Virus record (IMG/VR): IMGVR_UViG_3300022591_000057
Location: 1 to 26,954 of that record
Origin: a virus
Direction: 5' to 3' (one strand)
Length of the DNA: 26,954 nt
This document shows positions 8,701-23,603 of the stretch, one piece after another. Positions within the stretch are counted from its first letter, which is position 1. Every line of letters begins with the position of its first letter. The translations under genes and the position numbers were made by a program. The notes beneath the pieces were generated by a model that saw nothing but the letters and a program-made list of their open reading frames with translations, ran no database searches and had not been told where the DNA came from.

Positions 8701-8710
8701 TATAAATATC
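8701..8710 (-). promoter_or_regulatory. Candidate late promoter a (GATATTTATA)
   Basis: Minus-strand GATATTTATA sits 42 bases before the ATG of the 91-residue gene that leads into the tape measure unit. The flank reads TTTC before it and GATG after it. It matches five other sites placed at the heads of gene groups (see findings). No TTGACA-like box is visible at the usual distance. Function is inferred from recurrence and position. Confidence 0.55.
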
Positions 8711-8730
8711 GAAAGATGCAAGTTTTAATC

Positions 8731-8940
8731 CTATTTCTTCTGTATTGCGGGTCGTAATATTGGTGGTAATTTACCACCGGGCGCAGGTGGAGAAAATTTG
8801 TTACCCCCTTGTCCCTGTTCTGCTTGTTGAGTTTCCTTCTCTTTCCATTCTTTCAGTTTTCGGAGATAGAATTTACGAAGGTAGGTGGGCATCTCATAGA
8901 GTTCCGTCCAACGGAATCCACCATTTGATGCCATCACCAT
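8731..8940 (-). CDS. gp51-like tail/baseplate assembly partner (69 aa, or C-part of a frameshift fusion)
   Basis: Two readings fit. As a separate gene it starts at the ATG at 8940, with GAAGAG nine bases upstream, and gives 69 residues with FRWTELYEMPTYLRKFYLRK and then a Lys/Glu and Pro/Gly-rich tail. However, the same frame is open upstream through 8986 and overlaps the end of the gp26-like gene, and the residues before the ATG (LHEELFT) look like part of the same domain. A run of seven T at 8995-8989 in the gp26-like gene would move ribosomes into this frame by a +1 or -2 shift, giving a fusion of about 339 residues. Small proteins with a W-x-x-x-Y-x-M-P-x-x-L-R motif follow gp26-like proteins in T4-type phages and are linked to hub or tail assembly; this is from memory. 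Confidence 0.6.
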   Translation of the reverse strand: MVMASNGGFRWTELYEMPTYLRKFYLRKLKEWKEKETQQAEQGQGGNKFSPPAPGGKLPPILRPAIQKK

Positions 8941-8971
8941 CGTAAACAACTCTTCGTGCAGAAGAACCTTA

Positions 8972-9751
8972 TCACTTGCCGCTAGGCCAAAAAAACTCAA
9001 CGGAAAGCGGAACTGTGAGTCTATCTTCAAACGCACACTCCTTATTTGAACACTTGAAGTCAAACTCCATATCAATACCTGGTTGCATTTTATTCACATA
9101 TCTACGCAACGCAAGGGAGTCTCCAGCAACTAACTCTGTCGGATTCGTTGAATCAACAAACTTCGCAATGCGTCCGAGTGTCCTATCTCCATCCACGGAT
9201 GTAATCATTTTCTTCATACGTGTGGACAAATCAGGCGTATACTCTGTCTGTATCTTCTTTATCGCGGTAAGTTCCGAAGTGACTTCTGTTTCATCCTTAC
9301 TGCAAAGAAATCTGAATGTGATTTTGTGATGAGAGATAGGAAGTTCAAATGAAAACTCATTTACGCCTTGCGGCCACTGTTCTACGTTCACTTCCTTGTG
9401 TTCCAACTTCGCAAGGTCAATCGTCACTTTCTGTTTGTTCTCACAAATAGGACAAGTGACTTCAACATCATAGTTCTTTCCGTATCCGAGAACGCGAGTT
9501 GCAATCATCAGTGCGTTCTTATCACCAATGAGTAAGTCGTCATAGTTGACCGGAGAAACGAGAACGTTCTTCAGCACCATATCTATTGCGACACCCTTCT
9601 TGACAAGACCGGTAGAAGTCAAAATATCTTCTTCCCTTGCACCCATATAGCGAATTTCAATTGACCCCTTTGATAGAGGGCTTGTTTGTGGATAGAACCA
9701 TCCCTTCGAAGGAAGGTCTAGTACTTCCGTGTTGTGTTGTGTGTCTGACAT
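8972..9751 (-). CDS. T4 gp26-like baseplate/tail assembly protein
   Basis: A 259-residue protein with the hallmarks of the T4 baseplate gp26 family (Pfam T4_baseplate): LDLPSKGWFYP (11-21), GSIEIRYMGAREEDIL (29-44), a VAIDMVLKNVL helix, and LLIGDKNALMIATRVLGYG (73-91). Four cysteines, C100/C103 in TCPIC and C234/C239 in CSNKEC, probably bind one zinc. In T4, gp26 assists assembly of the baseplate hub; in many myophages the equivalent gene acts like a tail assembly chaperone before the tape measure, as placed here. The C-terminus reads VEFFWPSGK, and the two Phe codons plus the first base of Trp form a run of seven T that may be a frameshift site. A hairpin terminator precedes the gene. Confidence 0.8.
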   Translation of the reverse strand: MSDTQHNTEVLDLPSKGWFYPQTSPLSKGSIEIRYMGAREEDILTSTGLVKKGVAIDMVLKNVLVSPVNYDDLLIGDKNALMIATRVLGYGKNYDVEVTCPICENKQKVTIDLAKLEHKEVNVEQWPQGVNEFSFELPISHHKITFRFLCSKDETEVTSELTAIKKIQTEYTPDLSTRMKKMITSVDGDRTLGRIAKFVDSTNPTELVAGDSLALRRYVNKMQPGIDMEFDFKCSNKECAFEDRLTVPLSVEFFWPSGK

Positions 9752-9808
9752 ATGTTTTTCCTTTTGTGGTTGATAACTAATTACGAAACCATTCTACTGC
9801 GGAGAAGA

Positions 9809-9842
9809 AAAGAGAGGGCCGTCTGAACGCGACCCTCTCTTT
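9809..9842 (-). terminator. Terminator after tail tube gene
   Basis: On the minus strand a 10-base-pair perfect stem (AAAGAGAGGG with CCCTCTCTTT) closes a 14-base loop, about 25 bases after the tube stop. The 3' arm runs into TTTTCTTC, a modest U-tract. It fits a rho-independent terminator, which would let the very abundant tube be made from its own short transcript. Confidence 0.7.
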
Positions 9843-9867
9843 CTGGCTGTCACCTCTGACCGAAATT

Positions 9868-10356
9868 TTAGAACTGCAATATTGCGTAGTCGTAGCGGAG
9901 CGTCAATGTAATGTCAACGAACGCACTTTCTGCCCACGACAAATCACCGAACTGCGCCTGCTTGATATACGCACCTTTCAACGTCCACTCTTGAACTTTA
10001 TCTCCGAGAGGCCCGAGTACGTTGATGGTTATATCCTTTTTATACATATCAGAGTATCCCTCACGACCCGTAACTGACTCCAGATGGAGTCTAATCCATT
10101 CCATAACAGCACCCGATGCAGAAGGAACGATTGGGTCATAGAGAGTGATTGTCAAATCTTGCCACTCACCCTTACCCTTAATCTTCCTTTTGATGTTGAT
10201 GTGGTCAAGCGTTATATCTTCAAACGCAAGTGTCGGACGTGCAGCTGCGTGAATCATAAACGCCGGAATGCCTTCTATGTACATAATAAAACGGTTCTTA
10301 ACCATCGGTTCGAAGGCGACACCAAAAATCTCGTTCTGGTCAATCAAATTTGCCAT
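9868..10356 (-). CDS. Tail tube protein (T4 gp19-like)
   Basis: The 162-residue product is almost the same length as T4 gp19 (163). I chose the ATG at 10356 because GGAGAAG lies directly upstream; an in-frame start seven codons earlier would cover that site. Family-like segments are FEPMVKNRFIMYIEGIPAFM near the N-terminus, KRKIKGKGEWQDLTITLYDP in the middle and SAFVDITLTLRYDYAILQF at the C-terminus. Hexamers of this protein stack to form the inner tube through which DNA and the tape measure pass. A terminator and candidate promoter b lie before it and a terminator after it, so it appears to be a single-gene unit, fitting a high-copy structural protein. Confidence 0.9.
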   Translation of the reverse strand: MANLIDQNEIFGVAFEPMVKNRFIMYIEGIPAFMIHAAARPTLAFEDITLDHINIKRKIKGKGEWQDLTITLYDPIVPSASGAVMEWIRLHLESVTGREGYSDMYKKDITINVLGPLGDKVQEWTLKGAYIKQAQFGDLSWAESAFVDITLTLRYDYAILQF

Positions 10357-10407
10357 TACTCTTCTCCAAAAGTCCACACTCTGTTGAAACTACAATCGTT
10401 GTACTCC

Positions 10408-10417
10408 AATAAATATC
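10408..10417 (-). promoter_or_regulatory. Candidate late promoter b (GATATTTATT)
   Basis: Minus-strand GATATTTATT lies 51 bases before the tail tube ATG and only about 10 bases after the U-tract of the preceding terminator. It shares ATATTTAT with four other sites at gene-group heads. The tight terminator-promoter arrangement supports a start of transcription here. No experimental support can be read from sequence. Confidence 0.55.
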
Positions 10418-10427
10418 AACCAAAGGG

Positions 10428-10452
10428 AAAAACCGCACCATTTCTGATGCGG
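10428..10452 (-). terminator. Strong rho-independent terminator after zinc-ribbon gene
   Basis: On the minus strand CCGCATCA pairs with TGGTGCGG (8 base pairs, one G-T) around a GAAA tetraloop, followed at once by TTTTT. This is a textbook intrinsic terminator, 17 bases after the stop of the zinc-ribbon gene. Confidence 0.88.
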
Positions 10453-10468
10453 CCTTCCCTTGATTTAC

Positions 10469-11284
10469 TTAGTTAATACGCACTGGATTCCCACACCTTG
10501 CACAAAAACGGTCATTAAACTTGACTGCCTTTCCGCACTGTGTACAATGGAGTTTGTCCTCAGCGTAAACTACCGCCTCATCCGCATCTATACCCCTCAA
10601 CCACAACTTGATAACGGTTGATGGATATTCCTTCTCTCCGAAACTACCAACACCGAAGGACTGATTGGAATGACCACCTTCCACGGTTGCCCCAGCGTGT
10701 CCTGCCGGGCCAGGTGATGCAACTTGTTGCATACTCATACAACTGACCGCACCTGAAAACTGTGAAGCATCTGCACTTAAGTTCATATGTCCAACTTCAT
10801 CTGCATCTGAAGTACGGTACATCGCTCCTTTATACATAGGTGTGTGCCATTTTGGTCTGTATGGCCAACTACCTGAATCGTCGTTTTGCCAGTATGGCCA
10901 ATTGTTGGACACTGACCACGTGATTACTGGTGCTGGTTTCTCAAACCATACTTCCACTTCGATCAATCCGTTCTCCATACTTGAGGGGTCTTGAACACGT
11001 GAATCTCCAAGTGGGACGAATTTCAGTTTCTTGCCTTTCGACAAGTCACCGTCCGTGATGAAACGTTCAACGTCCACGGAACTACGAGCCGGAATAATAA
11101 TCTCTTGACCGCCGAGAATATCGGTTCCGTCAATCGTAATCTTAGCGATTGCACGTTGCCATTTGTCGTTCTTGATTTTGAGTGAGTATTCAGAATAGTC
11201 TGGTAAGTAGACTTGATTTCCGTGAACTTCACGGAGCGGTTTCCCGTCTTTTTCGATGAGCACAATGATACTATTTTTGTACAT
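10469..11284 (-). CDS. Zinc-ribbon protein of unknown function between sheath and tube genes
   Basis: The start at 11284 is fixed by AAAGGAGAAC just upstream; a longer in-frame start at 11419 would run through two hairpins and is unlikely. The 271-residue protein has three parts. Residues 1-118 form a beta-rich domain (DGKPLREV, IDGTDILGGQEIIIPARSS, DVERF) resembling a conserved phage/bacterial domain whose function I do not know. Residues 119-146 are very rich in Trp, Tyr and Pro (WPYWQN, WPYRPKW). After a Gly/Ser-rich linker comes GIDADEAVVYAEDK and a C-terminal zinc ribbon C247-x2-C250...C261-x2-C264. T4 has no gene at this place between gp18 and gp19. It has its own leader hairpins and a strong terminator, so it is probably made at its own level. 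It may be a virion or host-interaction protein. Confidence 0.75.
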   Translation of the reverse strand: MYKNSIIVLIEKDGKPLREVHGNQVYLPDYSEYSLKIKNDKWQRAIAKITIDGTDILGGQEIIIPARSSVDVERFITDGDLSKGKKLKFVPLGDSRVQDPSSMENGLIEVEVWFEKPAPVITWSVSNNWPYWQNDDSGSWPYRPKWHTPMYKGAMYRTSDADEVGHMNLSADASQFSGAVSCMSMQQVASPGPAGHAGATVEGGHSNQSFGVGSFGEKEYPSTVIKLWLRGIDADEAVVYAEDKLHCTQCGKAVKFNDRFCARCGNPVRIN

Positions 11285-11309
11285 TGGTGTTCTCCTTTGT
11301 TTGTTTTTA

Positions 11310-11351
11310 GAGTCGCCCGAACAACGACTCAGAATGTTATTTGAGTTCGGG
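11310..11351 (-). promoter_or_regulatory. Leader with two mutually exclusive hairpins
   Basis: In the minus-strand leader of the zinc-ribbon gene, CCCGAAC (11351-11345) can pair with GTTCGGG (11322-11316). GAGTCG (11330-11325) can pair with CGACTC (11315-11310). The 3' arm of the first stem lies in the loop of the second, so both cannot form fully at once. Such arrangements can act as switches or attenuators, but there is no known riboswitch consensus here and the pairings may be chance. Confidence 0.35.
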
Positions 11352-11381
11352 AAAGGTTCACACTTATTTTGATATAACAGT

Positions 11382-11413
11382 GGGAGTGCCCTTCCATACA
11401 GAAGGACACTCCC
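11382..11413 (-). terminator. Hairpin after tail sheath gene (possible terminator)
   Basis: Minus-strand GGGAGTG-T-CCTTC pairs with GAAGG-G-CACTCCC (12 pairs, one internal mismatch) around a 6-base loop, about 20 bases after the sheath stop. There is no U-tract after it (ACTGTTATATC follows), so it may be a weak or factor-assisted terminator, or a stem that protects the sheath mRNA 3' end. Confidence 0.5.
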
Positions 11414-11430
11414 TTGCACATTACCTAATG

Positions 11431-13761
11431 TTAGGCATTAGGGAACGTTGCACCTGTTGGTAGAACGTTGAAGTCAATTACTATGAACTCCGAAGTTTTC
11501 GTCGGTTTAATCCAAATCTGACCGTACAAAATCAACTGGTCAATCAAATCCGCCGTATTGTTCGAGTCGTCCATCTTAATAAAGAACGCATACAAACCAC
11601 TCTTCTGTTGCACGCTTGCGAAGTATGGATTTGTGATGTTTAAGAATCTGTTACGTGTTGCGGTGACGTTCTGTTCAAAGTTCAAGAACAATGAAGTCGT
11701 TGCGACGAACTTCTTAAGGTTAATCACCAACCTACGAACGTTGATACGGTCGAGTGCGGATGCCTTAAGTTGCAAGTTCTTCTGACCCCACGCAGTAACT
11801 CCTTGTCCTGGGAATGTTGCGAGAGGATTGATTCTTGCTTCATACAAATTGTCGCGCTGGTTGTGATCGAGTTTCAACTTTGCTTCGATTACTCCAGGAA
11901 GTCCACCACGATTCAAACCAGCTGGTGCATACCATTCGTATGCGATACTGTCGTTAAATGCAAACACGCCAGGCATCACTACGGATGGTGGAACCCAAAT
12001 CTGACTATTCGTTGAGGACTCTACGACTTTCACCCACGGGAAGTAAACCGCGACATAGTTAGAATCCATAGGATTGCCTTCTATGACGTTGATTGCTTCT
12101 TGTACCGTGTCTTGTGAACTGAAACCATCTGCGATATAGAATACATCACCACGATTTTCACACACGTTCTTCGCATACAACACAATTTGCGTATGATCTT
12201 CGTAGTTGACACCCGGAAGTACGAGCAAATTCGTATCAATATCTTCTTGACTTGCGATTGCGTCAATTGCCTTCTTCCAATTCAATGCGTCTGCGGTTGC
12301 TCCTGTAGACAAATCAAAGCCAAAGACGTTCAAATTGGTAATATCATCACCTACGTTGACTGGTGTTGCAGGAGACATACCGTCAAATCCACCCTGGAAC
12401 GGAACAATGAACTTGCGGTAATCTTGAATACCACCAATGTTAGCAAGAGAACCTGTGGTTACTACACCACTGAGCGTTGCGGACACTGAAATGTCGTCAA
12501 GACTGAATGTGACGTTGTTTCCAACTCCACCAGCTTTACTATTGACTGGCGAAAGATAATTGAGGTTATCGGCATTTTCAAAATCAAATCCAAAGAACCT
12601 ACGTGCATCATATACACTATCTATGGATTGCGTAGTCACGGTAGTTGCGGCGGATGCACTTAAATATGGACTAAGCAATGCAGCATATCCATATGGAAGT
12701 GCGGTTGGAGTTACATTTCCCACACCCGATGCCAATTCGACACGAACATATTGACTTACCGCTGGGTTAGAACCGCTCGACACCACTTTATTCACACCAT
12801 CGTACACCATATTGACGGCATACTTATCACCAATTCTCTTTGGTAGATAGTTTGAACTCTTCGGGTCAAGAGTGAGGTTTGCGAATGTTTCAATAACATC
12901 TGGTCTACGGTCAAGGTCTACCGAATCCATTGTACCATTGACTGTACGCACAATTACAGTAAACGTACCATAATTGTTTGTCTGTACATTTCCAACCTTA
13001 ATGTCTTGAATACCAATCTTGATGTCTTTGTTTGAAATGTTTCCATCACCGAGATTGTGGAACTTGAACAAGTTGACGGCAGTTCCACTGAAATGCTGAG
13101 ACTGAATCCAAGGCGTTACACCGTGGTCAAATCCAATAGATGAAGAGTATACAGAAGATGTAAATGCTCCCATCGTTGAATCGTTTGGACTTGTATATTG
13201 ACCCGCAAGAACATCGTTCATAAACTGCACATATATTGGTTGCGTTCCAAACGGAGACGTTCCAAATACCTTCGTGATGTAGTTAGGACTTGCTGGGTCA
13301 AACGATGCACTGATGCTTTGACTTACAAATGGAGTACTACCACTTACATTAAGAACAAATGATTCTGCCGTTCCAGCAACATATGTAACTCCGCTAAGCT
13401 TTCCAGCATTGTTACTAGGTGCAAGAACTGCTACAACCTTAGTTCCGAGTGAACTTGTGGTCGGCGAAAGTAACCACTCTAGTGTATTGTATCCGTTTCC
13501 ACCGAGCACTCTTACAACGTTTACAACACTCGCGTTACCGAGATATGATTCTACGGTGCGAGGCACATACGTTTTTGTGCTTGAAAATCCACACTTCGTA
13601 TAGAAGTCGTTCAAACCATTGTTGCATACAATCGGTACTAATGCTGGCCCTTTCTGGGTCGGTCCGATGACCGTTGCACCAATGGTACTGACTCCTTGCG
13701 CAATGAAGGATAAATCCTTCTCGCGGATGAATACACCCGCACTGACGATCTTTTCAGCCAT
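11431..13761 (-). CDS. Tail sheath protein (T4 gp18-like)
   Basis: A 776-residue contractile sheath subunit. The N-terminus has the family signature: SAGVFIREKDLSF, then GATVIGPTQKGPALVPIVC. The C-terminal domain shows the conserved sheath core: RRLVINLKKFVATTSLFLNFE, NRFLNITNPYF and DQLILYGQIWIKPTKTSEFI. The conserved ends form the inner ring that contacts the tube and provide the strand exchange between subunits. The middle (about 120-450) is long and Ser/Thr/Gly-rich, probably surface-exposed insertion domains; the protein is over 100 residues longer than T4 gp18 (659). GGAGAAAAGG precedes the ATG, and the coiled-coil gene ends 12 bases before it. This is one of the most secure calls in the window. 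Confidence 0.96.
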   Translation of the reverse strand: MAEKIVSAGVFIREKDLSFIAQGVSTIGATVIGPTQKGPALVPIVCNNGLNDFYTKCGFSSTKTYVPRTVESYLGNASVVNVVRVLGGNGYNTLEWLLSPTTSSLGTKVVAVLAPSNNAGKLSGVTYVAGTAESFVLNVSGSTPFVSQSISASFDPASPNYITKVFGTSPFGTQPIYVQFMNDVLAGQYTSPNDSTMGAFTSSVYSSSIGFDHGVTPWIQSQHFSGTAVNLFKFHNLGDGNISNKDIKIGIQDIKVGNVQTNNYGTFTVIVRTVNGTMDSVDLDRRPDVIETFANLTLDPKSSNYLPKRIGDKYAVNMVYDGVNKVVSSGSNPAVSQYVRVELASGVGNVTPTALPYGYAALLSPYLSASAATTVTTQSIDSVYDARRFFGFDFENADNLNYLSPVNSKAGGVGNNVTFSLDDISVSATLSGVVTTGSLANIGGIQDYRKFIVPFQGGFDGMSPATPVNVGDDITNLNVFGFDLSTGATADALNWKKAIDAIASQEDIDTNLLVLPGVNYEDHTQIVLYAKNVCENRGDVFYIADGFSSQDTVQEAINVIEGNPMDSNYVAVYFPWVKVVESSTNSQIWVPPSVVMPGVFAFNDSIAYEWYAPAGLNRGGLPGVIEAKLKLDHNQRDNLYEARINPLATFPGQGVTAWGQKNLQLKASALDRINVRRLVINLKKFVATTSLFLNFEQNVTATRNRFLNITNPYFASVQQKSGLYAFFIKMDDSNNTADLIDQLILYGQIWIKPTKTSEFIVIDFNVLPTGATFPNA

Positions 13762-13773
13762 ACCTTTTCTCCG

Positions 13774-14064
13774 TTATTTCGGTTGTTGTGCAGTTATTGG
13801 AGTAAATTCGCCAGTATTCAAATCCAACTGGCCTTGACCATACTTCGATTGAAGAGCTTCGAGCAATTTCTTCTCTTCCTCTCTTGCACCACCAACCATC
13901 GCTCTTAAATTTTCGACTTCAACTTCCAATACGTTCAGACGGTCGGTGAGATCGAATTTTTCCAATTGAACTTGGCCCAATCGGAATGTTGCTTGTGTAT
14001 ATTTCTGTTGAAGGTCTGCTACCGACTTCAACTCTTCGGGTGTGAACTTGATTTTATCTGACAT
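13774..14064 (-). CDS. Small coiled-coil protein upstream of sheath
   Basis: A 96-residue acidic protein, almost entirely helical by eye, with heptad-like spacing in VADLQQKYTQATFRLGQVQL and LTDRLNVLEVEVENLRAMV. The end reads KYGQGQLDLNTGEFTP, a short motif I associate with small phage coiled-coil proteins of unknown role. It shares a unit with the sheath gene and has its own candidate promoter (14104-14113) and GGAGAG ribosome site. It could be a virion component or a sheath chaperone. T4 has the terminase genes in this interval, but nothing here shows terminase function. Confidence 0.7.
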   Translation of the reverse strand: MSDKIKFTPEELKSVADLQQKYTQATFRLGQVQLEKFDLTDRLNVLEVEVENLRAMVGGAREEEKKLLEALQSKYGQGQLDLNTGEFTPITAQQPK

Positions 14065-14103
14065 AGGTGTAACTCTCCTTCCAAAAGATGATAGTTTTAC
14101 GAC

Positions 14104-14113
14104 TATAAATATG
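14104..14113 (-). promoter_or_regulatory. Candidate late promoter c (CATATTTATA)
   Basis: Minus-strand CATATTTATA, preceded by ATT and followed by GTCG, lies 39 bases before the ATG of the coiled-coil gene that leads into the tail sheath. It shares the ATATTTAT core with the other sites. It would give the sheath unit its own late transcript, separate from the glycosyltransferase genes. Confidence 0.55.
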
Positions 14114-14124
14114 AATTAGGAATC

Positions 14125-14601
14125 TCAAAATGCGAATTTTCGCACAGCCGCGATGACAATTTTTGGTTCAACAAATACCTTCTCGTCGTATTCGTCCAAT
14201 TCCCACCATTCGAATTGACGGGGACGCAAAAACTCTCGCCCTTTCAACAAATTTACGTTTTCGTGATATCCGAACAATTTGGGGTCTGACCGTCCCCAGA
14301 TTACGATTCCGCGCTTCCCAATGAAGTGCGCGTAGTGTTGAACCCAATTGTCAACGGAAATCCAAAAGTTGTACTGTTTGATTGCGGCCTCTGCATCTAC
14401 GAGAGACGTATATTGAACGAACTTGTGAATACTCGGCAATCGTAGTTCATTACCGTATACGAGTTGTACCACTTCAACATTATCGTACACCGGTAAATTC
14501 GCTGGTAATACTTCAACCACTTCATTCCACCACGGATAGTTCTTTGGATTTCGTTTACCGTCTTTCAAGAGACGTGAATATGGAGAGATTAAAATTTTCA
14601 T
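14125..14601 (-). CDS. GT9-like glycosyltransferase, C-terminal half
   Basis: A 158-residue protein that looks like only the second Rossmann half of a GT9-type (heptosyltransferase-like) enzyme. It has an entry strand KILISPYSR, then FWISVDNWVQHYAHFIGKRG, matching the family's 'D-x-x-x-x-H-x-A' nucleotide-sugar site, and IVIWGRSDPKLFGY. The first half of such an enzyme is at the C-terminus of the preceding gene. I chose the ATG at 14601, which overlaps the upstream TGA as ATGA and has GGAGA eight bases before it. Coupled re-initiation would yield both halves in equal amounts, and they may assemble. Alternatively an ancestral single gene was broken by a frameshift. Confidence 0.65.
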   Translation of the reverse strand: MKILISPYSRLLKDGKRNPKNYPWWNEVVEVLPANLPVYDNVEVVQLVYGNELRLPSIHKFVQYTSLVDAEAAIKQYNFWISVDNWVQHYAHFIGKRGIVIWGRSDPKLFGYHENVNLLKGREFLRPRQFEWWELDEYDEKVFVEPKIVIAAVRKFAF

Positions 14602-16934
14602 AACCACATTCTCCTATATGCTTCAACAAGGTTTTGTTTGAAATCGTGAGTACGCATCCATTCATAGACATTATGTTCCGGTAGATTCATTCCCATATCC
14701 TTCGCATCTTGAATGGAAATTTGCGTTATTGTATCTTCCTCACGGAACACTTCTGGATAACACGTTGAAAGTATGATGCGTCCATATCTCTGTTTCAAGT
14801 CGTGTAGAATGTGTTTGAACGCATAGTGATCGCCGACGCCTGTATCGAGTATGATTGTCTTTGTCTCACGGAACTGAACCTTGAACTTCTGCATATATTT
14901 CTTGAAGATTTCTTCGTCGTGTTTCATATTCTGTTCAACTTCATAGGCGCGGATTCCGCCGCTTTCCGCTCGAAGGTGCCACGTTACCACGTCACCAATG
15001 ACTATGAGTTTGTATCCTTGTTGTTTGATACCCCACGTGAACATTGTCTCTTCGCGGTGTCCAACAGGACTCAAACTCAAATCATATCCGTGTCCAGCAA
15101 GTTTTCTGCGGAACAAATACGTGTTGTGTAGGTGGTCAACTTCTCGTTCGCCTTCAAACTTATCCCACTGAGTATTCGGACTGAAATATATGTCGCGAAT
15201 GTCACCAGAGGAAATCTTGTGCCATACTTTGTTGGTATTCGCCGGTACAATCGCACAAGACGCAACTGCACCAACTTCATCATCCTCTTTCAATTTGCGA
15301 ACCAATGCCTCAAGTACATTTGTTTCTGGTAAGTTATCATCATCAAGTCTCCATATCAAAGGTGTCTTACAGACTTCCAACATAAGTTGGTCAATGTCTG
15401 CCATACCTTTCTTACGACCCCACTGAATCCAACAAGAGATTCCTTTCAGTTCCATAAGTCGGAACAACCCTTGCCACACTGGGTCGTCCTTTATCTTCTT
15501 TTCATTTTGTTCACCATCGTCAATGACCAAAATCTTACTAGGTGGTGTCGTCTGATTGACTATCGCAGAGATGCATTGTGGAAGGGTAGTGAAAAATCTT
15601 CCCTTCGTAGGAATACACGCAGTTACTTCATACCCTTCCAACTCACCGTCAAGCTTGATTTCCGGTGGTTTCTCCGCTGGCGCGACTTCACCGCCTGGCT
15701 TGAAAGCTTCCACACGGAAACACGGACCTGGATGCGGATATTCGGTCTTGTCGGTAAATGATATGTTGACATAACCCGCTCGATCAAGTTGTTCCTTCAA
15801 ATTTTCTTCATACCATCCATAAAGATGAGGAGAGGTGATTTTCGATGCGTCGTCTTTATCTGTGGTGTTTATGACACCATACATCATAGCAATATTTCCT
15901 GGCATATCTTGTTTCTTTTCAGGCAATCGGTATGCGTCCAACACCCATTCACACAATTTGATAAAGTGAGGCATCTCCATTACAAGTTTGCCACCCGGTC
16001 TTAATATGCGTTTCCACTCTATCAATGTCTGCACAATGGTGAATGGGTTAAGATGCTCAAAAACGTGTGATGCAATGATTAGACCACCGCAATCATCTGG
16101 CATATCAGGCATCGGTTTCTGAATATCCATCAGGAGTCCGGCACGTTCATCATACAAATCAACATTGATCGCGTCGTGCATTATGTCGCCGGCACAACCA
16201 AAGTTGAATTTTGCATTGTGATTGTATTTTTTCAGATTGATAATACCATTTCGTCTACATATAACCTTTCGGTATTCAGGTATGTCTCTGTAGCTGCGAT
16301 TGTCTTTGTGCCAAATCGGAAAATCTGATGCGTTCGTAACACCATTGTATTGTGTTGTTGCGGTCTGTACCACTTCCCATCCATCTACTTGTATCTTAGC
16401 GCAGTAATCAATATCTTCACCACCCGCGGGCGTGTAAATTTCATCAAAGGAACCATACTTCTCAAAAAGTTCTCTTGGTGTCAATAAACAGAATCCGACT
16501 ACAAAACGATACCCGGCATATCCATCATAAAGAACAAGTGGGCCTGCTGCACCTACTTTTGGATTTGTAAACGCATCCAATTGTTTTTGAATCCATTCAT
16601 TCGGTTTGCCCCACGGAAGGAATACAACATCATTATTGAGGAACAAAAGATATTTGCCTTTTGCAACCTTCGCACCTTCATTGCTTGCTTTGGTGAATCC
16701 TAATTGTTCATCGAACCATACCAATTTGTACACATCATCCTTGTCATTAGCGATCAACTCCTCAACATATGGCCGAGTATTATCTGTACAACCATTTGCT
16801 ACGATGACGATTTCGAATTGTTTGAACATATCGTCCGTGGTGGAACTGCGAACACTATCAATGCACTCTTTGAGCAAATCTTCCCAATGGTTCCACGTAG
16901 GAATGACGATACTGACTAATTTTTCGATTGGCAT
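14598..16934 (-). CDS. Multidomain glycosyltransferase-methyltransferase-glycosyltransferase
   Basis: A 778-residue fusion with four parts. (1) Residues 6-200: GT2 glycosyltransferase with VSIVIPTWN, the metal-site region LFLNNDVVF (97-105) and GGEDIDYC (171-178). (2) Residues 240-410: class I methyltransferase-like domain with a degenerate SAM loop FGCAGD (245-250), SHVFEHL (289-295) and LRPGGKLVMEMP (311-322). (3) Residues 435-690: second GT2 domain with ACIPTKGR, IDDG and the DDD motif at 531-533, then HREET. (4) Residues 691-778: first half of a GT9-like fold (TKTIILDTGVGDHYAFKHIL). The second half is the next gene. The protein could glycosylate the virion, phage DNA or a host surface polymer; the sequence does not say which. 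It has candidate promoter d but no visible terminator before it. Confidence 0.85.
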   Translation of the reverse strand: MPIEKLVSIVIPTWNHWEDLLKECIDSVRSSTTDDMFKQFEIVIVANGCTDNTRPYVEELIANDKDDVYKLVWFDEQLGFTKASNEGAKVAKGKYLLFLNNDVVFLPWGKPNEWIQKQLDAFTNPKVGAAGPLVLYDGYAGYRFVVGFCLLTPRELFEKYGSFDEIYTPAGGEDIDYCAKIQVDGWEVVQTATTQYNGVTNASDFPIWHKDNRSYRDIPEYRKVICRRNGIINLKKYNHNAKFNFGCAGDIMHDAINVDLYDERAGLLMDIQKPMPDMPDDCGGLIIASHVFEHLNPFTIVQTLIEWKRILRPGGKLVMEMPHFIKLCEWVLDAYRLPEKKQDMPGNIAMMYGVINTTDKDDASKITSPHLYGWYEENLKEQLDRAGYVNISFTDKTEYPHPGPCFRVEAFKPGGEVAPAEKPPEIKLDGELEGYEVTACIPTKGRFFTTLPQCISAIVNQTTPPSKILVIDDGEQNEKKIKDDPVWQGLFRLMELKGISCWIQWGRKKGMADIDQLMLEVCKTPLIWRLDDDNLPETNVLEALVRKLKEDDEVGAVASCAIVPANTNKVWHKISSGDIRDIYFSPNTQWDKFEGEREVDHLHNTYLFRRKLAGHGYDLSLSPVGHREETMFTWGIKQQGYKLIVIGDVVTWHLRAESGGIRAYEVEQNMKHDEEIFKKYMQKFKVQFRETKTIILDTGVGDHYAFKHILHDLKQRYGRIILSTCYPEVFREEDTITQISIQDAKDMGMNLPEHNVYEWMRTHDFKQNLVEAYRRMWL

Positions 16935-16963: not shown

Positions 16964-16973
16964 AATAAATATA
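16964..16973 (-). promoter_or_regulatory. Candidate late promoter d (TATATTTATT)
   Basis: Minus-strand TATATTTATT, with GGT before it and GATA after it, lies 29 bases before the ATG of the multidomain glycosyltransferase, the shortest distance among the six sites. It carries the same ATATTTAT core. If active, it separates the glycosylation pair from the neck genes. Confidence 0.5.
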
Positions 16974-16994: not shown

Positions 16995-17825
16995 TTATTG
17001 CGTTGGGCGTGCTGGGGGAACACCACTTGTCTCAATAAATACAACGGTTTTCTTGGTACTTAAGACCTTCCTCACAACATTTCCTGCCTGAGCGAGGATT
17101 TTGTTGATTGTATTCGGTACAAGGTATCCATTGACTGTCAAGGTAAAGGTACTCTTCAATGTTCTATCTGTTTCGGTGGTGATTTCCGTAGGTGTTGCAA
17201 TGTCCCCGACGTATGCGCGAAATCTGAACTTGGTGGGGTCGCCCCAATATGCGCGACTTGCGAATACCATTGATTCGACAATGGAGTTCATTGCTATATT
17301 TTTTACTGTCCATATTGTCACTTCATACGTTGCAATGATATAATCCGGCACTACCACATTGTAGAACTCACGTACAGGAACTTGATTTGTCAATACGCTG
17401 AAATTACTGTATCGGTTCTTCTCCGAGTATTTTTTCTGTATCGTGTAGTATAACTGGGGATTGTTTGCGTCCAACTTATCAATAGGAAGAGATGTGTCTC
17501 TTGCAACATTTACCCTCTTATAGATAATCGCAGGCGTCAACAACTTTCCTTTGTTGTCACGTAGATATCCATACTTCTCTACGGACGCCCATCGTTCTTG
17601 TGAACCATAAAGTGCAGGCACAGCAACAACCGCACCGTTATCTATAATTTGTGGTTTGATAACGTTGTTGAAATAGAAGTCTATCGCACTATCAATCGTT
17701 TCGAGAGTGACCGTAAGGAACTGCTCGGTCGTATCAATAACATTACCAATTTGCGAGTCAATGTCATTCGCACGATTGATTGGTATACCGTTACTTGGAG
17801 CAATATTTGGTTTAAGTTCATCCAT
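16995..17825 (-). CDS. Tail terminator / neck protein (T4 gp15-like)
   Basis: At 276 residues it is close in length to T4 gp15 (272). Shared features, compared from memory, are a central ALYGSQERWASVEKYGYLRD region, the strand-helix segment IIATYEVTIWTVKNIAMNSI with VESMV, the late segment FTLTVNGYLVPN (gp15 has a similar 'F-x-V-N-G-x-x-x-P'), and a Pro-rich C-terminus. In T4, gp15 caps the finished tail as a hexamer and binds the head neck. Its start overlaps the stop of the preceding gp14-like gene as TAATG, with GGAGAG as ribosome site. The gene order gp13-, gp14-, gp15-like supports the call. Confidence 0.65.
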   Translation of the reverse strand: MDELKPNIAPSNGIPINRANDIDSQIGNVIDTTEQFLTVTLETIDSAIDFYFNNVIKPQIIDNGAVVAVPALYGSQERWASVEKYGYLRDNKGKLLTPAIIYKRVNVARDTSLPIDKLDANNPQLYYTIQKKYSEKNRYSNFSVLTNQVPVREFYNVVVPDYIIATYEVTIWTVKNIAMNSIVESMVFASRAYWGDPTKFRFRAYVGDIATPTEITTETDRTLKSTFTLTVNGYLVPNTINKILAQAGNVVRKVLSTKKTVVFIETSGVPPARPTQ

Positions 17826-18304
17826 TACCTATTCTCTCCGTCTCTATCGTTGTCGATTGCTGCTTCTGGTTGCCTCGTCATATGCGCATAGCAAATAATG
17901 GAGAAATTGTAATCAGTGTGTCCACCTGGGAATTTCGATTCGTCTACTGCACCAATCTCAAAATATGAATAGTTCCATTCGAGAATATCGCCTATTTGTG
18001 GATTGATACCATTGAGTATACGAAGTTGCTCGCGGTTGAACGCGACGATGAGATTCTGATTCTTGTCCGTACCAAATTCTGTCGTCTCTGTCTCTTCCGG
18101 GTTGTTGTTAATTAGACCGAACAATTCTACTGGCTTGAAATATACTCTATTCTCCGATTCTCCGTAGACATTAGCTTTAGTATCATACGGCGCGACTCTC
18201 CATAGATTCACAGGGTTCATAATGACTTGAGCTACCAATTCATAACTGATATGGTTCATAAAATCAATTGCTCGGTCACGTATAAACATCCCACCTTTTG
18301 CCAT
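17825..18304 (-). CDS. Neck protein (T4 gp14-like)
   Basis: A 159-residue protein, shorter than T4 gp14 (256). The useful segment is NPQIGDILEWNYSYFEIGAV, which resembles the gp14 'G-D-x-I...F-E-I-x-x-V' strand pair. Another conserved-looking part is NRVYFKPVELFG. In T4, gp13 and gp14 together close the filled head and make the site for tail attachment. Both gene ends overlap neighbours as TAATG, which puts it in a tightly coupled neck operon. The assignment relies on this segment and on gene order, so another small neck protein is possible. Confidence 0.55.
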   Translation of the reverse strand: MAKGGMFIRDRAIDFMNHISYELVAQVIMNPVNLWRVAPYDTKANVYGESENRVYFKPVELFGLINNNPEETETTEFGTDKNQNLIVAFNREQLRILNGINPQIGDILEWNYSYFEIGAVDESKFPGGHTDYNFSIICYAHMTRQPEAAIDNDRDGENR

Positions 18305-19152
18305 TAGTAATCTCCTTCAACGTACTGTTCCCAATATTCAGGAAGTCGTTTTGGACTGCCCATATCCACGTCATTTGACATTGGTGGTCCTGACGCTGAT
18401 GGTTCTATCTGCACCATTCCACCTTTCGGCATCATAATGGGACCAGTCTGTTTGAACGTAACCATTGAATCATATTTCTTTGAATACCCACTTACGCCCA
18501 TATCAGAATTGTATGCTCGAAGTAAGTCCTTCTTTTGTCGAACGTTCATCCCCTTGTACTTCTCAATGTGTAGGTCGAATGTCTTTGGGCCGTCCTTGAA
18601 CACGGGCGTCTCATATACCAAATCCTTCAACTTCACTCTACCCTCTTTCTTTGGGAGTCTGAACTTGACCGCTGGTTTGTCGTTTATGGTCGGCATATCA
18701 TCGTCACCCTTCCCAATCTTCTTCACTTCGATAGGATGGTTTTTGAACTTACCCACAAGAACAGTATCGCCTTTCTTTAGGGGTACGTTTATGTCTTCCA
18801 GTATGTCTTTGAGTTTCATTGTTGATTCTACTATCTCACTTACCTTTATGGTTTTACTGCCGGTCACTTTTCCTTTTTGATTGATAAAAGTAATCCCTAA
18901 TTCCTTTGGTTCAAATTTGTCCGGTATATTGTGCCTGAAAAATCGAAGTGTGTCTTGAAGTCGTTCGGGAAGCAATTCTACATCAAACTCATCTCCAACT
19001 TCATTCATCCATACATATCCTTGTCCGGTGGCCTCATCTGGATCAATCTTTCCGTGTGTGTGTCTAGTCAAAGTCCTTCCGTGAACAAACAAACCATATT
19101 TGTTGTTTGATATGAACTTGTTATTTGGTGTCAACCATCCACTGAAATTCAT
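18304..19152 (-). CDS. Unknown protein within the neck operon
   Basis: A 282-residue basic protein I cannot assign. A recognisable module is KKGDTVLVGKFKNHPIEVKK followed by IGKGDDDMPTINDKPAVKFR, a beta-rich segment that I have seen as a recurring motif in phage hypothetical proteins. The N-terminus mentions no signal peptide; the C-terminus is Met/Gly/Pro-rich and probably flexible. It is placed between the gp13-like and gp14-like genes, where T4 has none, starts four bases after the gp13-like stop and overlaps the gp14-like start as TAATG. A virion or head-tail joining role is likely from context only. Confidence 0.65.
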   Translation of the reverse strand: MNFSGWLTPNNKFISNNKYGLFVHGRTLTRHTHGKIDPDEATGQGYVWMNEVGDEFDVELLPERLQDTLRFFRHNIPDKFEPKELGITFINQKGKVTGSKTIKVSEIVESTMKLKDILEDINVPLKKGDTVLVGKFKNHPIEVKKIGKGDDDMPTINDKPAVKFRLPKKEGRVKLKDLVYETPVFKDGPKTFDLHIEKYKGMNVRQKKDLLRAYNSDMGVSGYSKKYDSMVTFKQTGPIMMPKGGMVQIEPSASGPPMSNDVDMGSPKRLPEYWEQYVEGDY

Positions 19153-19156
19153 ATGG

Positions 19157-20716
19157 TTATCCTATATAGATTGGTATAGGAATTGCAGACAAGGTTTTCT
19201 TCAACGCCTCTGATTCCGCCGCTTCCATCTCAAGTTGTGCCTGTTTGGTGAACTTCTCCAGCATTGCGCGGAGATTTTCAATCAGTGCAGTTTTGTCGTT
19301 ATCGGCGGTAGTAATCAAGTCGTTTCCATCCAACGTCGTTTCGTTGTTTGGTATCGGTAGTGTATTGAATTTCACACGTACACGTCCGAGCATATTCTTT
19401 GATACGGCAAGTCCGTAATCACGAATCCATTGTAGACCAATCGAATTGATATTTCCGTACACCATATTCTGATATGGTGCGTTTGACATATCCGATACAC
19501 CATTGTACTCTGCGGAGTCTGTACCACCAGCATTTGCAACTGGGTCGTCCCTATCCGATTTCAAAATATAGTCAAACCATATTGCATAAGAATCCTGAGG
19601 AACAGGAAGAATTCGAATTTGTTTGTTGATTACTTCAAATGCATACGCACTCTTACGGACAGTATCGTTGAAATCAATTGCTTGAATACGTAGAAGGTCT
19701 GCATAAATCGGTAACATCATAAACGAAGTTGCGACGGAGAAGTTAGTCCAACCAAACTCTTGCAACATCGAGTATGTACCCATACCTGTTCCGGCGAATG
19801 GGTCGAAGTATCGAACGATTGCCGGTGGACTGTAATGCCATATTCTCTTGATTTCAATTTCAGATGCGTTGCCAATCGGTGGTTGGAATCTCTTTGTGTT
19901 GTAGTTCACCGACGCAGTTACCGCAGATGATTGTGATGGAGTAAATGCCGTATGTGATGCAGAGAAAATGAGATTGATATTTCCGTTCCCATCAGTGAAG
20001 TTGTAAAGTGGGAAACTACCAGAAATAGGAACGATGCTTCCTGTTCCGCTACCACTTCCAATTGCTTCAAGATTGAACGTGAGTAAATTGTCTGGTGTAT
20101 TGAATGGTGAAACACCTGTCGGTGTACTGTAAATCCAAAGTTCTCCATTTGCAACTGATGTGGAAAGTGTTGGATCAAGATTGACTTGTGACCACAACGA
20201 ACTTGTCACCGTTCCACCATAGATAATTGATGGTGCGGCTGGTACTGATGCGCTATCGAATTGGGCGCGAAAGACGTTTATTGCTTTGAACATATCATAA
20301 ACAGAAACGCTTGAAGTTGTAATGAACGCTGCGTGTCGAAGTGGAACATTTCCACCAACGAGAACTTCTTGACCGTACTGTTCTGCGATTCGAATGATGC
20401 CACCCATACTGAAATTCGCGTTCTTCTGAGTCAAATTGTTATTTGTCGGTGAACCTTGTAGACGCAACATATTCTGTTGTGCGTTCCACATATTAACTTC
20501 CATTCCGTACTCATTGATCGCCTCTTCGTAGGCTGCATAGAAATTCACGTCTTGCAACTCCACGTCCATAACCGGGTATCCGAGTCGGAACGCCGCCCAC
20601 TTCGCAAATCGCGGTGCATCATTTACGAACTTTGTATCGTTGTCGTAGAATCCATATGGTGTAGAACCTGAAGGATTGGAACCGCTTCCTGGCCAAATAG
20701 GTATCGTTATTGCCAT
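19157..20716 (-). CDS. Neck / head-tail connector protein (T4 gp13-like)
   Basis: A 519-residue protein. The N-terminal part (about 20-80) has FYDNDTKFVNDAPRFAKWAA, then RLGYPVMDVELQDVNFYAAY, a helical region common to connector proteins of large myophages. The C-terminal part has WIRDYGLAVSKNMLGRVRVK, TLDGNDLITTADNDK and a final helix ending in PIPIYIG, which follows the gp13 ending pattern as I remember it. The middle is a Ser/Thr/Gly-rich beta region that makes it longer than T4 gp13 (309). It opens the neck operon after candidate promoter e. GGAGAC lies a few bases before the ATG. Confidence 0.65.
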   Translation of the reverse strand: MAITIPIWPGSGSNPSGSTPYGFYDNDTKFVNDAPRFAKWAAFRLGYPVMDVELQDVNFYAAYEEAINEYGMEVNMWNAQQNMLRLQGSPTNNNLTQKNANFSMGGIIRIAEQYGQEVLVGGNVPLRHAAFITTSSVSVYDMFKAINVFRAQFDSASVPAAPSIIYGGTVTSSLWSQVNLDPTLSTSVANGELWIYSTPTGVSPFNTPDNLLTFNLEAIGSGSGTGSIVPISGSFPLYNFTDGNGNINLIFSASHTAFTPSQSSAVTASVNYNTKRFQPPIGNASEIEIKRIWHYSPPAIVRYFDPFAGTGMGTYSMLQEFGWTNFSVATSFMMLPIYADLLRIQAIDFNDTVRKSAYAFEVINKQIRILPVPQDSYAIWFDYILKSDRDDPVANAGGTDSAEYNGVSDMSNAPYQNMVYGNINSIGLQWIRDYGLAVSKNMLGRVRVKFNTLPIPNNETTLDGNDLITTADNDKTALIENLRAMLEKFTKQAQLEMEAAESEALKKTLSAIPIPIYIG

Positions 20717-20762
20717 TGTACTGTCTCCACATTATAGATATTTCTCCCGTGTATCCTGTGTA

Positions 20763-20772
20763 TATAAATATC
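20763..20772 (-). promoter_or_regulatory. Candidate late promoter e (GATATTTATA)
   Basis: Minus-strand GATATTTATA, identical to site a, lies 46 bases before the ATG of the gp13-like gene. It follows the terminator repeat at 20788-20854 by about 15 bases, forming the same terminator-promoter punctuation as at the tube gene. Confidence 0.55.
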
Positions 20773-20787
20773 AATGGTCAAGGGAAT

Positions 20788-20854
20788 ATACAACAAAAAC
20801 GGACTATTGAAGTATGTCTCAATAGTCCACTATTGTGATTGCCTATACGTCGGG
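20788..20854 (-). repeat. Terminator repeat copy 1 (after surface-protein gene)
   Basis: A 67-base element that recurs at 23607-23673 with about 85% identity by eye. The minus strand runs CCCGAC, then TAGGCAA, then a perfect 10-base-pair hairpin GGACTATTGA/TCAATAGTCC (20801-20828, loop of 8), then G and TTTTTGTTGTAT. The hairpin plus U-tract is a convincing rho-independent terminator for the 894-residue gene that ends at 20861. The conserved flanks outside the stem show that the two copies share descent rather than arising separately. Confidence 0.85.
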
Positions 20855-20860
20855 ATTACG

Positions 20861-23545
20861 TTAATGTGTACCAACTACTAGATACTGTCCGGCAGACCAT
20901 CCGGTTATTCCATCAGAATATGCAACCTTCCAGAACGTGTATGTTGAAGAACCATTAACATCTGGTGAAGGCCCATCTACAACTACTCCATTTGTTCCTG
21001 CAGGTTCACATTTGAGAGCAACAGAGTTTGTAATAGAAGGTACGGTTCTTGCATTTATACAGTCCGTAGTCAATGTAACATAGACATTACTACCGATCTG
21101 GATTTGAGTAGACGGAGTGGCAGTAAACGTCAAGTCAGCCCCATTGACCGTTCCTGATGTGTTGGTAGCATTTAATCTAAAGTGATACAGTGTTCCAGCA
21201 GTCAAACCGGTAATCGCTGCGTTCACAGTCTGAGGTGTTGTGGAAGTCAACAGCTTTTGGACAGGTGTTTTTGTTCCATATGATGTTGTCGTACCATACT
21301 CAAAGTAGTAAGTCGAAGGCATTCCATTACCATTGACCGTACCGTTGACTTGAGCAGTCGTTGTAGTTATATTGGATGCCCCTAGCGTCACAGGCGTCGG
21401 CAATACGACTGGTGCAGCACTTGTTATAAATGTCGCATCAGAACTAGAAACCGTACCGCCACTGTTTGTTGCAACAAGACAATAATGATACAATGTTGCA
21501 GGACTCAAACCAGTTATCGTTCCAAGAACCAGTACTGGAGTAGTACCTGCACCCGCGTTTGTTGTAGGTGTAGTCGATCCATAGGATGCTGTTGTCCCTA
21601 CCTTGAAATAGTAGGTTGTCGCATCACCATTCGGATTCACTACACCACTCATCTGCGCACTAGTGGACGTAACATTCGAGAGCGCTACAGTCGGTAATGC
21701 CTGAACAGGCGGTGGTACTGGATTAACTGTCACCGCAGCAGTATATGATTTCGTGCCACTTACATTACTTAACGTCAATGTGAATGTTGTGCTTGCAGAA
21801 ACAGTTGCCGTTTTACTTCCCCCAGTAGTTGCAACCGTTCCTACTCCATTATCAATTGATGCCGTTGTTGCATTATTTGCTGTCCACGTAAGAGTTACTG
21901 AACCTGTTCCTACAATACTCGTTGGACTAACTATAAGAGTGCCTGTAGGAACTGATGGAGGAACAGGATTAACTGTTACCGCAGCTGTATATGTTTTTGT
22001 ACCACTCGCATTATTTAATGTCAATGTGAACGTCGTAGTTGTGGAAACAGTTAGTGTTTTACTTCCTCCAGTGATTGCGACTGCTCCTACTCCATTATCA
22101 ATTGTTGCTGTCGTCGCATTATTCGCCGTCCACGTAAGAGTTACTGAACCAGATCCTATAATACTTGTCGGAGTAACTGCAAAACTACCTGTAGGAAGTT
22201 GAACTGGTGGTACTATACCATCTGGACTAGTGACAATGAAAACTCCAAACGTAGGTTGAGTATTATAGACTATGCCTGTGTTGTCGTCTCCCGGTGCTGT
22301 GACCGGAACTGAAAAGGCCTTAGATGTCATTGGAATCGAAACTTTACCTCCCGTGTAGGTGCCAGAGGCAACTACGGTGCCAAAATAGTTTTCCGCATCC
22401 TTAACTACGTAGTTCGAACCTACTGCTATGAAGGTTGACAAGTCTACTTGAACCGAAGGTGATCCCGCCCAATTATAGACGATAACATTTGCGCGTGTTG
22501 GTTCATAGTCGTTCTTCCTGATAATAACACTCACTCCCGACGTAGGTCTTGGTGCATAGGTTCCGATTGCTGTTTGATCTCCCGCCGTATTGTAGAAAAG
22601 ATTCCCCGCGGAAGTCAGTGGGGAAACATTGAACAACATCATCCCTTCCGTCACCGTATTGTTACTGAATGTTCCGTTGGTAAACGGATTCGGGCCGTAT
22701 CCAAACTCCAAGTTGTAATGTCCGATGCTTGCCGACGGATAGTAGAGATGATTGTTGATGACAGAAATATTGTTTCTACTCGTTCCAGGCGCTGCTCCGA
22801 TGAGGAGATTCGTCTGGAATGTCCCACCATTAGGATTGTTCCATATCTGTCCGGTGCTGACAACCACGTTACCGTCGATGGTAATGTTGCTCACTCCGGA
22901 CTGTTCGGCATAGATGTGAAGACCAAGATTCCAGTTGTCCCAAAAGATATTATCCTTGATGAGTTTCGTCCCATTACCGTCGTTGTTCTGCGTATAGATG
23001 CCATAATTGTGAGCACCGTTGCTAACGTCCATCATACGACCGTTGTTGTAGATCAAGCATCCATTCACCTCTCCGCGAGTCGCAAGAACTTCCCAGTTAA
23101 TTCCCATCGCAACGCAATCGTGGATAATACAGTTGATGATCTTTATTCCATCACCACCACCGTAAATACCAAGATTAAAACCGCATCCAGGAGCTTGAAG
23201 TTTCTGTCCCGGCTCGGAAGTAAGTTCGAGTCCCCAGAACCATACATAAGAACAAGTGTGGTTTGGATCGCCCGAAGTATGAATACAGTCTTGCCAATCT
23301 GCCAGACCGGAGATTATTACCTGTTCACCGGTGTAGTTACGAACTATAATCGGACTTGTAGATGTACCATTGAGAAAACAAAAATACGGATTGTTGTTAG
23401 GATTGATGTACTTACCTGCCCTCAGGTAGAGTGTATCGCCCGGTTTAATCACAAGTGATTGCAATGCGGACGCGAGTTGCCACGGATTCCCTATTGTTCC
23501 ATCTCCATTCGCTGCAGCTGACGGACTTGCATAAAATGTGCTCAT
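20861..23545 (-). CDS. Beta-helix / Ig-like / FN3 / SH3 surface protein (probable tail fibre or spike)
   Basis: An 894-residue modular protein without a signal peptide. Residues 1-330 form a right-handed beta-helix: GDTLYLRAGKY, then repeated Asn/Gly-rich turns such as GIKIINCIIHDC and NITIDGNVVVS. Residues 335-440 form a small beta domain. Residues 451-530 and 533-612 are two nearly identical Ig-like domains (SVTLTWTANNATTA). Residues 616-710 and 715-812 are two FN3-like domains (TYYFKVGTTASYG, TYYFEYGTTTSYG). Residues 816-892 form a bacterial SH3-like domain (NARTVPSI...FWKVAYSDG...GW). This set suits carbohydrate binding on the virion surface. I see no sure catalytic residues. It sits alone between two copies of a terminator repeat, which suggests a swappable cassette. 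GGAGAA precedes the ATG. Confidence 0.8.
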   Translation of the reverse strand: MSTFYASPSAAANGDGTIGNPWQLASALQSLVIKPGDTLYLRAGKYINPNNNPYFCFLNGTSTSPIIVRNYTGEQVIISGLADWQDCIHTSGDPNHTCSYVWFWGLELTSEPGQKLQAPGCGFNLGIYGGGDGIKIINCIIHDCVAMGINWEVLATRGEVNGCLIYNNGRMMDVSNGAHNYGIYTQNNDGNGTKLIKDNIFWDNWNLGLHIYAEQSGVSNITIDGNVVVSTGQIWNNPNGGTFQTNLLIGAAPGTSRNNISVINNHLYYPSASIGHYNLEFGYGPNPFTNGTFSNNTVTEGMMLFNVSPLTSAGNLFYNTAGDQTAIGTYAPRPTSGVSVIIRKNDYEPTRANVIVYNWAGSPSVQVDLSTFIAVGSNYVVKDAENYFGTVVASGTYTGGKVSIPMTSKAFSVPVTAPGDDNTGIVYNTQPTFGVFIVTSPDGIVPPVQLPTGSFAVTPTSIIGSGSVTLTWTANNATTATIDNGVGAVAITGGSKTLTVSTTTTFTLTLNNASGTKTYTAAVTVNPVPPSVPTGTLIVSPTSIVGTGSVTLTWTANNATTASIDNGVGTVATTGGSKTATVSASTTFTLTLSNVSGTKSYTAAVTVNPVPPPVQALPTVALSNVTSTSAQMSGVVNPNGDATTYYFKVGTTASYGSTTPTTNAGAGTTPVLVLGTITGLSPATLYHYCLVATNSGGTVSSSDATFITSAAPVVLPTPVTLGASNITTTTAQVNGTVNGNGMPSTYYFEYGTTTSYGTKTPVQKLLTSTTPQTVNAAITGLTAGTLYHFRLNATNTSGTVNGADLTFTATPSTQIQIGSNVYVTLTTDCINARTVPSITNSVALKCEPAGTNGVVVDGPSPDVNGSSTYTFWKVAYSDGITGWSAGQYLVVGTH
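21710..21949 (-). repeat. Tandem Ig-like domain repeat, unit 2
   Basis: Encodes residues 533-612 of the surface protein. It is a tandem copy of 21956-22195, with most residues identical (for example TLTWTANNATTA, DNGVG, YTAAVTVNPVPP). The close match at DNA level points to a recent duplication within the gene. Confidence 0.85.
21956..22195 (-). repeat. Tandem Ig-like domain repeat, unit 1
   Basis: Encodes residues 451-530 of the surface protein, and is directly followed by its copy at 21710-21949. Unequal recombination between the units could change the number of Ig domains. Confidence 0.85.
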
Positions 23546-23593
23546 CGTGATTCTCCTCTAAACAAATTTGACTGGACATTTATATCTTACTCG

Positions 23594-23603
23594 TATATAT
23601 ATC
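23594..23603 (-). promoter_or_regulatory. Candidate late promoter f (GATATATATA)
   Basis: Minus-strand GATATATATA, with TTC before it and CGAG after it, lies 48 bases before the ATG of the surface-protein gene and directly after terminator repeat copy 2. It differs from sites a and e at one position (T to A in the core), so it is the least exact of the six. Confidence 0.45.

Follow-up and report, generated by a model that had tools for sequence, protein, structure and literature searches.

Housekeeping promoters of Bacteroidota consist of a TTG at position -33 and a TAnnTTTG element at -7. The late promoters of phage T4 (TATAAATA), which are served by gp55, gp33 and the gp45 clamp, consist of a box without upstream element, the role of which is taken over by the sliding clamp (PMC2988020). 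For the Far-T4 phages, which are T4-related and mostly uncultivated myoviruses, the study of Roux et al. 2015 (PMC4360716) did not detect core genes of transcription regulation, and the word 'promoter' is absent from it. Here, a recurring box with the sequence ATATTTAT is described in the IMG/VR virus record IMGVR_UViG_3300022591_000057. The window, i.e. the complete record, is a linear fragment of 26,954 bases with 43% GC, which carries nearly all of its genes on the minus strand. Comparison with relatives suggests, with a probability of roughly 0.8, that ATATTTAT forms the core of a late promoter of the -10-type only, which is read by a phage sigma factor in a large clade of T4-related myoviruses. 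Searches of an open-access library yielded no earlier description of ATATTTAT as a phage late promoter.

Seven exact copies of the box occur in the window, compared to a mean of 1.25 and a maximum of 4 in 100 shuffled sequences. The preliminary description of this DNA had listed five copies on the minus strand and a one-base variant at 23594-23603, each located before a start codon and three closely following a terminator. All of these coordinates hold, and the three hairpins were assigned to 10426-10459, 20798-20831 and 23618-23650. The five exact boxes end 30-47 bases (30-49 if the variant is included) 5' of start codons on the coding strand; the start codons downstream of the six boxes are at 8659, 10377, 14064, 16934, 20716 and 23545. 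The two copies noticed in coding sequence near 3285 and 5263 are at 3285-3292 (minus strand) and 5265-5272 (plus strand). When the window was scored with a matrix trained on the relatives by expectation maximization (EM), the exact boxes took ranks 1-4 and 6; rank six is the box at 10409, and rank five is the coding position 10042. A weaker look-alike that had been proposed at 141-150 has a score of -9.3 and is not a site under this matrix. The variant ATATATAT at 23595 has a moderate score of 8.1, which is matched by some coding positions, and is therefore graded as a probable and not as a certain promoter site; its assignment is supported by the preceding terminator, its place and its purine.

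The tail sheath gene of the window (11431-13761) served as the anchor for finding relatives. A megablast comparison of the window with phages yielded no matches, and a scan of viral contigs with the single sheath sequence gave no confirmed relative; a three-row alignment then recovered relatives, and 80 IMG/VR loci with a sheath identity of about 41-46% were collected. The frequency of every 8-mer in intergenic DNA upstream of genes was compared to its frequency in the whole sequence; the genes were predicted by a simple script that selects the longest open reading frames (ORFs), which makes their starts approximate. The motif discovery in intergenic DNA that had been proposed for this phage and its relatives puts ATATTTAT at the top in the window (5 of 7 copies upstream, 0.06 expected), in Microcystis phage Mel-JY01 (190 kilobases, kb), in contigs G001 (20 of 41 copies upstream) and G002 (13 of 34), and by a wide margin in the 80 pooled loci, where 254 of 445 copies are upstream and 4.84 were expected. 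Due to near-duplicates among these loci, the pooled p-value overstates independence, and the spread over single loci is the better guide: 78 of the 80 loci have one or more copies upstream. For Flavobacterium phage immuto (MW353175), of which the 45-kb structural part was analyzed, TATTTATA ranks first and ATATTTAT second. T4 served as the positive control: in 50 kb of its late genes, TATAAATA ranks first (8 copies, 0.12 expected). The motif is by no means equally common in coding DNA, as the window and the 80 loci contain 311 gene-upstream copies in 52 kb of non-coding DNA versus 120 copies in 875 kb of coding DNA. With the EM model, 80% of the upstream regions yield a site. A recurrence by chance or as an effect of composition has a negligible probability. 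The motif consists only of A and T, and intergenic DNA is AT-rich; however, all stronger competing 8-mers in the 80 loci are overlapping shifts of the same box, the sense strand of the relatives shows no enrichment of the T4 motif TATAAATA, the count in the window exceeds that of all shuffled sequences, and the place of the box is conserved in relatives whose sheath is only about 45% identical, which, together with the pooled 8-mer result, refutes this explanation.

This conservation is most evident at the sheath and tube genes. An exact box is located in the gap between the sheath gene and the next (tube) gene in 48 of the 61 loci with a readable next gene, at an expectation of 0.03 per gap; most of the other 13 loci have CTATTTAT or ATACTTAT in this gap. 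In the window, in Mel-JY01 and in immuto, a box precedes the tube gene, and a further one is found at the sheath gene or immediately in front of it. For example, Mel-JY01 has a box before its small gene and sheath, at the same place as the box 14105-14112 of the window. As judged from its neighboring genes, the box occupies an orthologous position in the relatives. The use of Shine-Dalgarno sequences varies from about 0 to 0.9 across the 80 loci that share the same late box, and the box therefore does not follow the translation signals of the hosts.

The anatomy of the box was deduced from 274 non-redundant sites. The consensus begins with a base other than A, which is strongly avoided, followed by ATATTTAT, an A or T, three free bases, a purine and an A-rich stretch. 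At box position 12, the frequencies are 0.55 for A, 0.35 for G, 0.08 for T and 0.01 for C. This purine, five bases after the box, is present in 91% of the upstream copies versus 47% of the coding copies (p = 2.5e-17), and in six of the six sites of the window. Transcripts are likely to begin with this base. Start codons follow the box at a median distance of 31 bases, which varies between 15 and 79 bases (5-95%), whereas the spacing between box and purine is constant (5 bases); this combination is predicted for a promoter but not for a translation signal. It is thus very improbable that the motif is the binding site of a regulator on DNA or RNA, or a signal for processing or translation of the 5' leader, instead of a promoter core. 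The fairly constant median distance to the start codon would agree with such a role, but the box often follows terminators, where a new promoter is needed, and the true late promoter of T4 gives the same statistical picture.

The box was also compared to the host-type promoters of the same genomes. Mel-JY01 contains 19 intergenic TTG-N19-21-TAnnTTTG sites, nearly all of them with N20, and a promoter of the form GTTGC...TATnTTTAGGTATCAAT recurs in immuto at 60-77 kb. By its elements, the latter is a host-type early promoter in which an A replaces the final G of TAnnTTTG. The two promoter classes are separated by region: the structural clusters of Mel-JY01 comprise 11 of 17 late-type sites versus 1 of 19 host-type sites (p = 2e-4), and 18 of 26 late-type versus 0 of 18 host-type sites of immuto are located beyond 77 kb (p = 1.6e-6); both p-values are a guide only, as the region boundaries were picked with knowledge of the annotation and of the site lists. 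Because other genes, largely outside of the structural clusters, use the host-type promoter, the box marks late genes; early and late are timings predicted from gene class and promoter type. In the window, no intergenic instance of a TTG about 20 bases before TAnnTTTG was found, and a scan with a fixed sigma-70 promoter was uninformative (38 sites, 38 expected by chance).

It is conceivable, albeit unlikely, that the boxes are read by the housekeeping sigma factor of the host, as -7 elements without a -33 partner and perhaps aided by a phage activator, such that no phage sigma factor is required. ATATTTA overlaps with TATnTTTA/G, the host-like -7 element in front of early genes of immuto and Mel-JY01, and ATnTTTA occurs in both the late box and the Bacteroidota housekeeping promoter, at similar distances from the start. 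In contrast to the latter, the late box has a T and not a G after TTTA, and it lacks the TTG at fixed spacing. Positions -32 to -19 of the box contain little or no information (a maximum of 0.2 bits, at a single position), and no -35/-33 element exists at ATATTTAT boxes. A TTG within the host spacing, at five allowed offsets, occurs at 36 of the 274 late boxes, which is slightly above the background of 8-22 in most other windows of this kind, whereas the early sites of immuto have this TTG at 98-99% per base. Moreover, the host-type sites form a separate class in the same genomes, mostly before other genes, and in Mel-JY01, immuto and contig G003, the box is found together with a sigma-like phage protein.

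Two side observations concern these host-type promoters. In immuto (60956-76216) and at loci L126-L178, a very uniform arrangement of GTTGC, about 20 bases and TATnTTTAGGTATCAATAA heads many small genes of unknown function. The recorded host of Mel-JY01 (PP395634, 53718-182009) is Microcystis. In view of the 19 intergenic promoters of the Bacteroidota type and of relatives that infect Flavobacterium and Rhodothermus, this label may be wrong, e.g. if the host was another bacterium in a non-axenic culture.

A candidate for the protein that reads the box was found in the relatives with complete or long genomes. A gp55-like sigma factor had been suggested as a target for a search; the relatives encode a good candidate, and none was found in the window. 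The gene is therefore placed in the part of the genome beyond the 27-kb fragment. In the relatives, the profiles of T4 gp55 and phrog_12791 yielded only one weak match, which is immuto gene 153 at an expectation value (E) of 0.008 with the T4 late-sigma profile. The protein is unannotated, comprises about 235 amino acids (aa) and resembles sigma region 2 and gp55. Members of its family match the T4 late-sigma family PHROG 234 at 0.011, and gp55 can be aligned with them collinearly, although only weakly (E 0.0025). An AlphaFold model has a mean predicted local distance difference test (pLDDT) score of 77 and a predicted template modeling (pTM) score of 0.44. When this model was compared to the PDB, about 36 of the 50 best matches were sigma factors or complexes containing them; in a viral fold library, many of the best matches are annotated as sigma factors, among them the sigma-like factor of Klebsiella phage KPV15 (target TM 0.64). 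A search of PDB sequences with the sigma family gave no match. Among 50,697 phage records, homologues exist only in immuto isolates, the 484-kb phage LR756508 and Mel-JY01; a profile search added contig G003 as a clear homologue, with the box also present, and Rhodothermus phage RM378 as a distant one. At least 500 IMG/VR stretches encode the candidate. Taken together, sequence and fold argue that the protein is quite probably a sigma factor, and it likely acts at ATATTTAT. A gp45-like clamp was detected in G001 (1e-10) and G005 (1.4e-8); the same profile had no match in Mel-JY01 or immuto.

The similarity to the T4 late system is considerable. Both boxes consist of eight bases, exclusively A and T, about one turn before the start or predicted start, lack a -35 element, head structural genes of T4-related phages, come with a sigma-like phage protein and rank first in the same k-mer test (PMC2988020). 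They differ in the consensus, in the position of the start-like purine, which is 12 here (91%) and 13 in T4-like loci (73%, 22 sites), and in the sigma candidate, which is too divergent to be identified with confidence by a T4 gp55 profile. We judge the ATATTTAT system to be a variant of the T4-type late-promoter system, which works like T4 late promoters but has a different consensus. The proposal of a late promoter is supported by the distant relatives, the orthologous position, the start-like purine and the separation from host-type promoters. The polarity opposite to T4 that had been proposed with it was not confirmed: on the strand of the box, the start-like purine and the genes are both located 3' of it, and the polarity is therefore that of T4. 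Accordingly, a reversed T4 promoter was rejected. As a string, TATTTATA is indeed TATAAATA in reverse complement; a more fitting description of the box is that of a separate -10-type element, similar to the -7 element of Bacteroidota (TAnnTTTG) but lacking the -33 TTG.

These data are consistent with the following mechanism. Early promoters, which are of the host type, would be read by the host polymerase with its own sigma factor. A phage sigma factor resembling gp55 would be made from early or middle units and would then switch the host core polymerase to the ATATTTAT boxes without upstream element, with transcription presumably starting at the purine. Immuto gene 153, the Mel-JY01 protein and their homologues would correspond to T4 gp55. 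That the boxes are promoters of the late class is well supported; the assignment of the sigma factor is probable. Tentatively, and at somewhat less than even odds, this can be generalized: Far-T4-like phages that infect Bacteroidota and related hosts may have a late system of their own, with a divergent family of gp55-like sigma factors, hundreds of which occur in viromes, and a -10-only box that resembles the host -7 element without its -33 partner, as T4 TATAAATA resembles the E. coli TATAAT without -35. If so, late promoters of T4-related phages would as a rule consist of a host-like -10 element without upstream element, and the box would follow the -10/-7 element preferred by the host polymerase.

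Several findings weigh against a late promoter read by this candidate. In Mel-JY01 and immuto, a small number of boxes head genes outside of the structural clusters, and in the window, gene 8972-9751 follows a hairpin but has no recognizable box. The Pfam Sigma70_r2 matches of the candidate (1.2e-4 and 6e-4) are below the Pfam cut-off, the hhalign probability of the gp55 alignment is 12%, and the E-values of the PDB fold matches are all at least 0.14. LR756508 encodes the candidate, and its 49-kb sheath region (185000-234000) displays neither a clear enrichment of ATATTTAT nor, for k of 6, 7 or 8, a clear late box; its late box may differ from ATATTTAT. RM378, a T4-related myovirus like the Far-T4 phages, has a homologue, but its first 50 kb contain no ATATTTAT upstream of genes and no clear late box at the same values of k. 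Conversely, G001, G002 and G005 contain the box, and the candidate was not detected in these probably incomplete contigs.

The system combines a late promoter having a precisely predicted start base with a matching sigma candidate, of which viral contigs contain at least 500 relatives, and concerns the transcription program of Far-T4 phages that was left open in 2015 (PMC4360716). Immuto and Flavobacterium sp. LMO8 are a cultured pair that allows for direct testing of promoter and sigma factor. Furthermore, the box is a simple sequence tag for predicting late operons in uncultivated phage genomes.

According to profile searches, the window encodes a T4-like block of tail and neck genes (Table 1). 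The marker genes g23, g20 and g17, by which phages are formally placed in the Far-T4 group, were not recognized in the 27-kb fragment by these searches.

Table 1. Late promoter boxes, hairpins and genes of the window, and sigma candidates of the relatives. Coordinates refer to the window unless another sequence is named.
Feature	Coordinates	Strand	Details
Probable late promoter box, variant ATATATAT	23595-23602	-	heads 20861-23545; predicted start G; model score 8.1; after hairpin 23618-23650
Late promoter box ATATTTAT	20764-20771	-	heads 19157-20716, 18304-19152, 17825-18304, 16995-17825; predicted start A; model score 14.6; after hairpin 20798-20831
Late promoter box ATATTTAT	16965-16972	-	heads 14598-16934, 14125-14607; predicted start A; model score 16.0
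Late promoter box ATATTTAT	14105-14112	-	heads 96-aa gene 13774-14064, sheath 11431-13761, 10469-11419; predicted start G; model score 13.0
Late promoter box ATATTTAT	10409-10416	-	heads tube gene 9868-10377; predicted start G; model score 12.6; after hairpin 10426-10459
Late promoter box ATATTTAT	8702-8709	-	heads 8384-8659, 5980-8373 and genes beyond; predicted start G; model score 16.4
Terminator-like hairpin	23618-23650	-	just 5' of 23595 box
Terminator-like hairpin	20798-20831	-	just 5' of 20764 box; near copy of hairpin 23618-23650
Terminator-like hairpin	10426-10459	-	just 5' of 10409 box
Virion structural protein, 894 aa	20861-23545	-	PHROG 2155 at 9.3e-15
Neck protein, head-tail adaptor gp13-like	19157-20716	-	PHROG 211 at 6.5e-11
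Tail sheath gene, 776 aa	11431-13761	-	PHROG 23 at 7.6e-57; 43% identity to Mel-JY01, full length
Tail tube gene	9868-10377	-	PHROG 4542 at 4.9e-28
Baseplate hub	8972-9751		profile searches
Tape-measure-like gene	5980-8373		profile searches
Baseplate wedge	3092-3400		profile searches
Sigma candidate, immuto gene 153	MW353175 78174-78872		
Sigma candidate, Mel-JY01	158764-159534		
Sigma candidate, LR756508 (484-kb phage)	100327-100995 (L125)		40% identical

Two genes of other types are located in this block. A glycosyltransferase protein of 778 aa with a weak methyltransferase match (14598-16934) is located between tail gene units and has its own late box, and a homing-endonuclease-like gene (5447-5980) lies amid the tail genes. 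The hairpins 20798-20831 and 23618-23650 are nearly identical (GGACTATTGAGACA..TCAATAGTCC), with a late box directly after each of them; this terminator-promoter cassette may have been duplicated or shuffled. The box at 8702-8709 is flanked by the inverted repeat AATAGGA ... TCCTATT.

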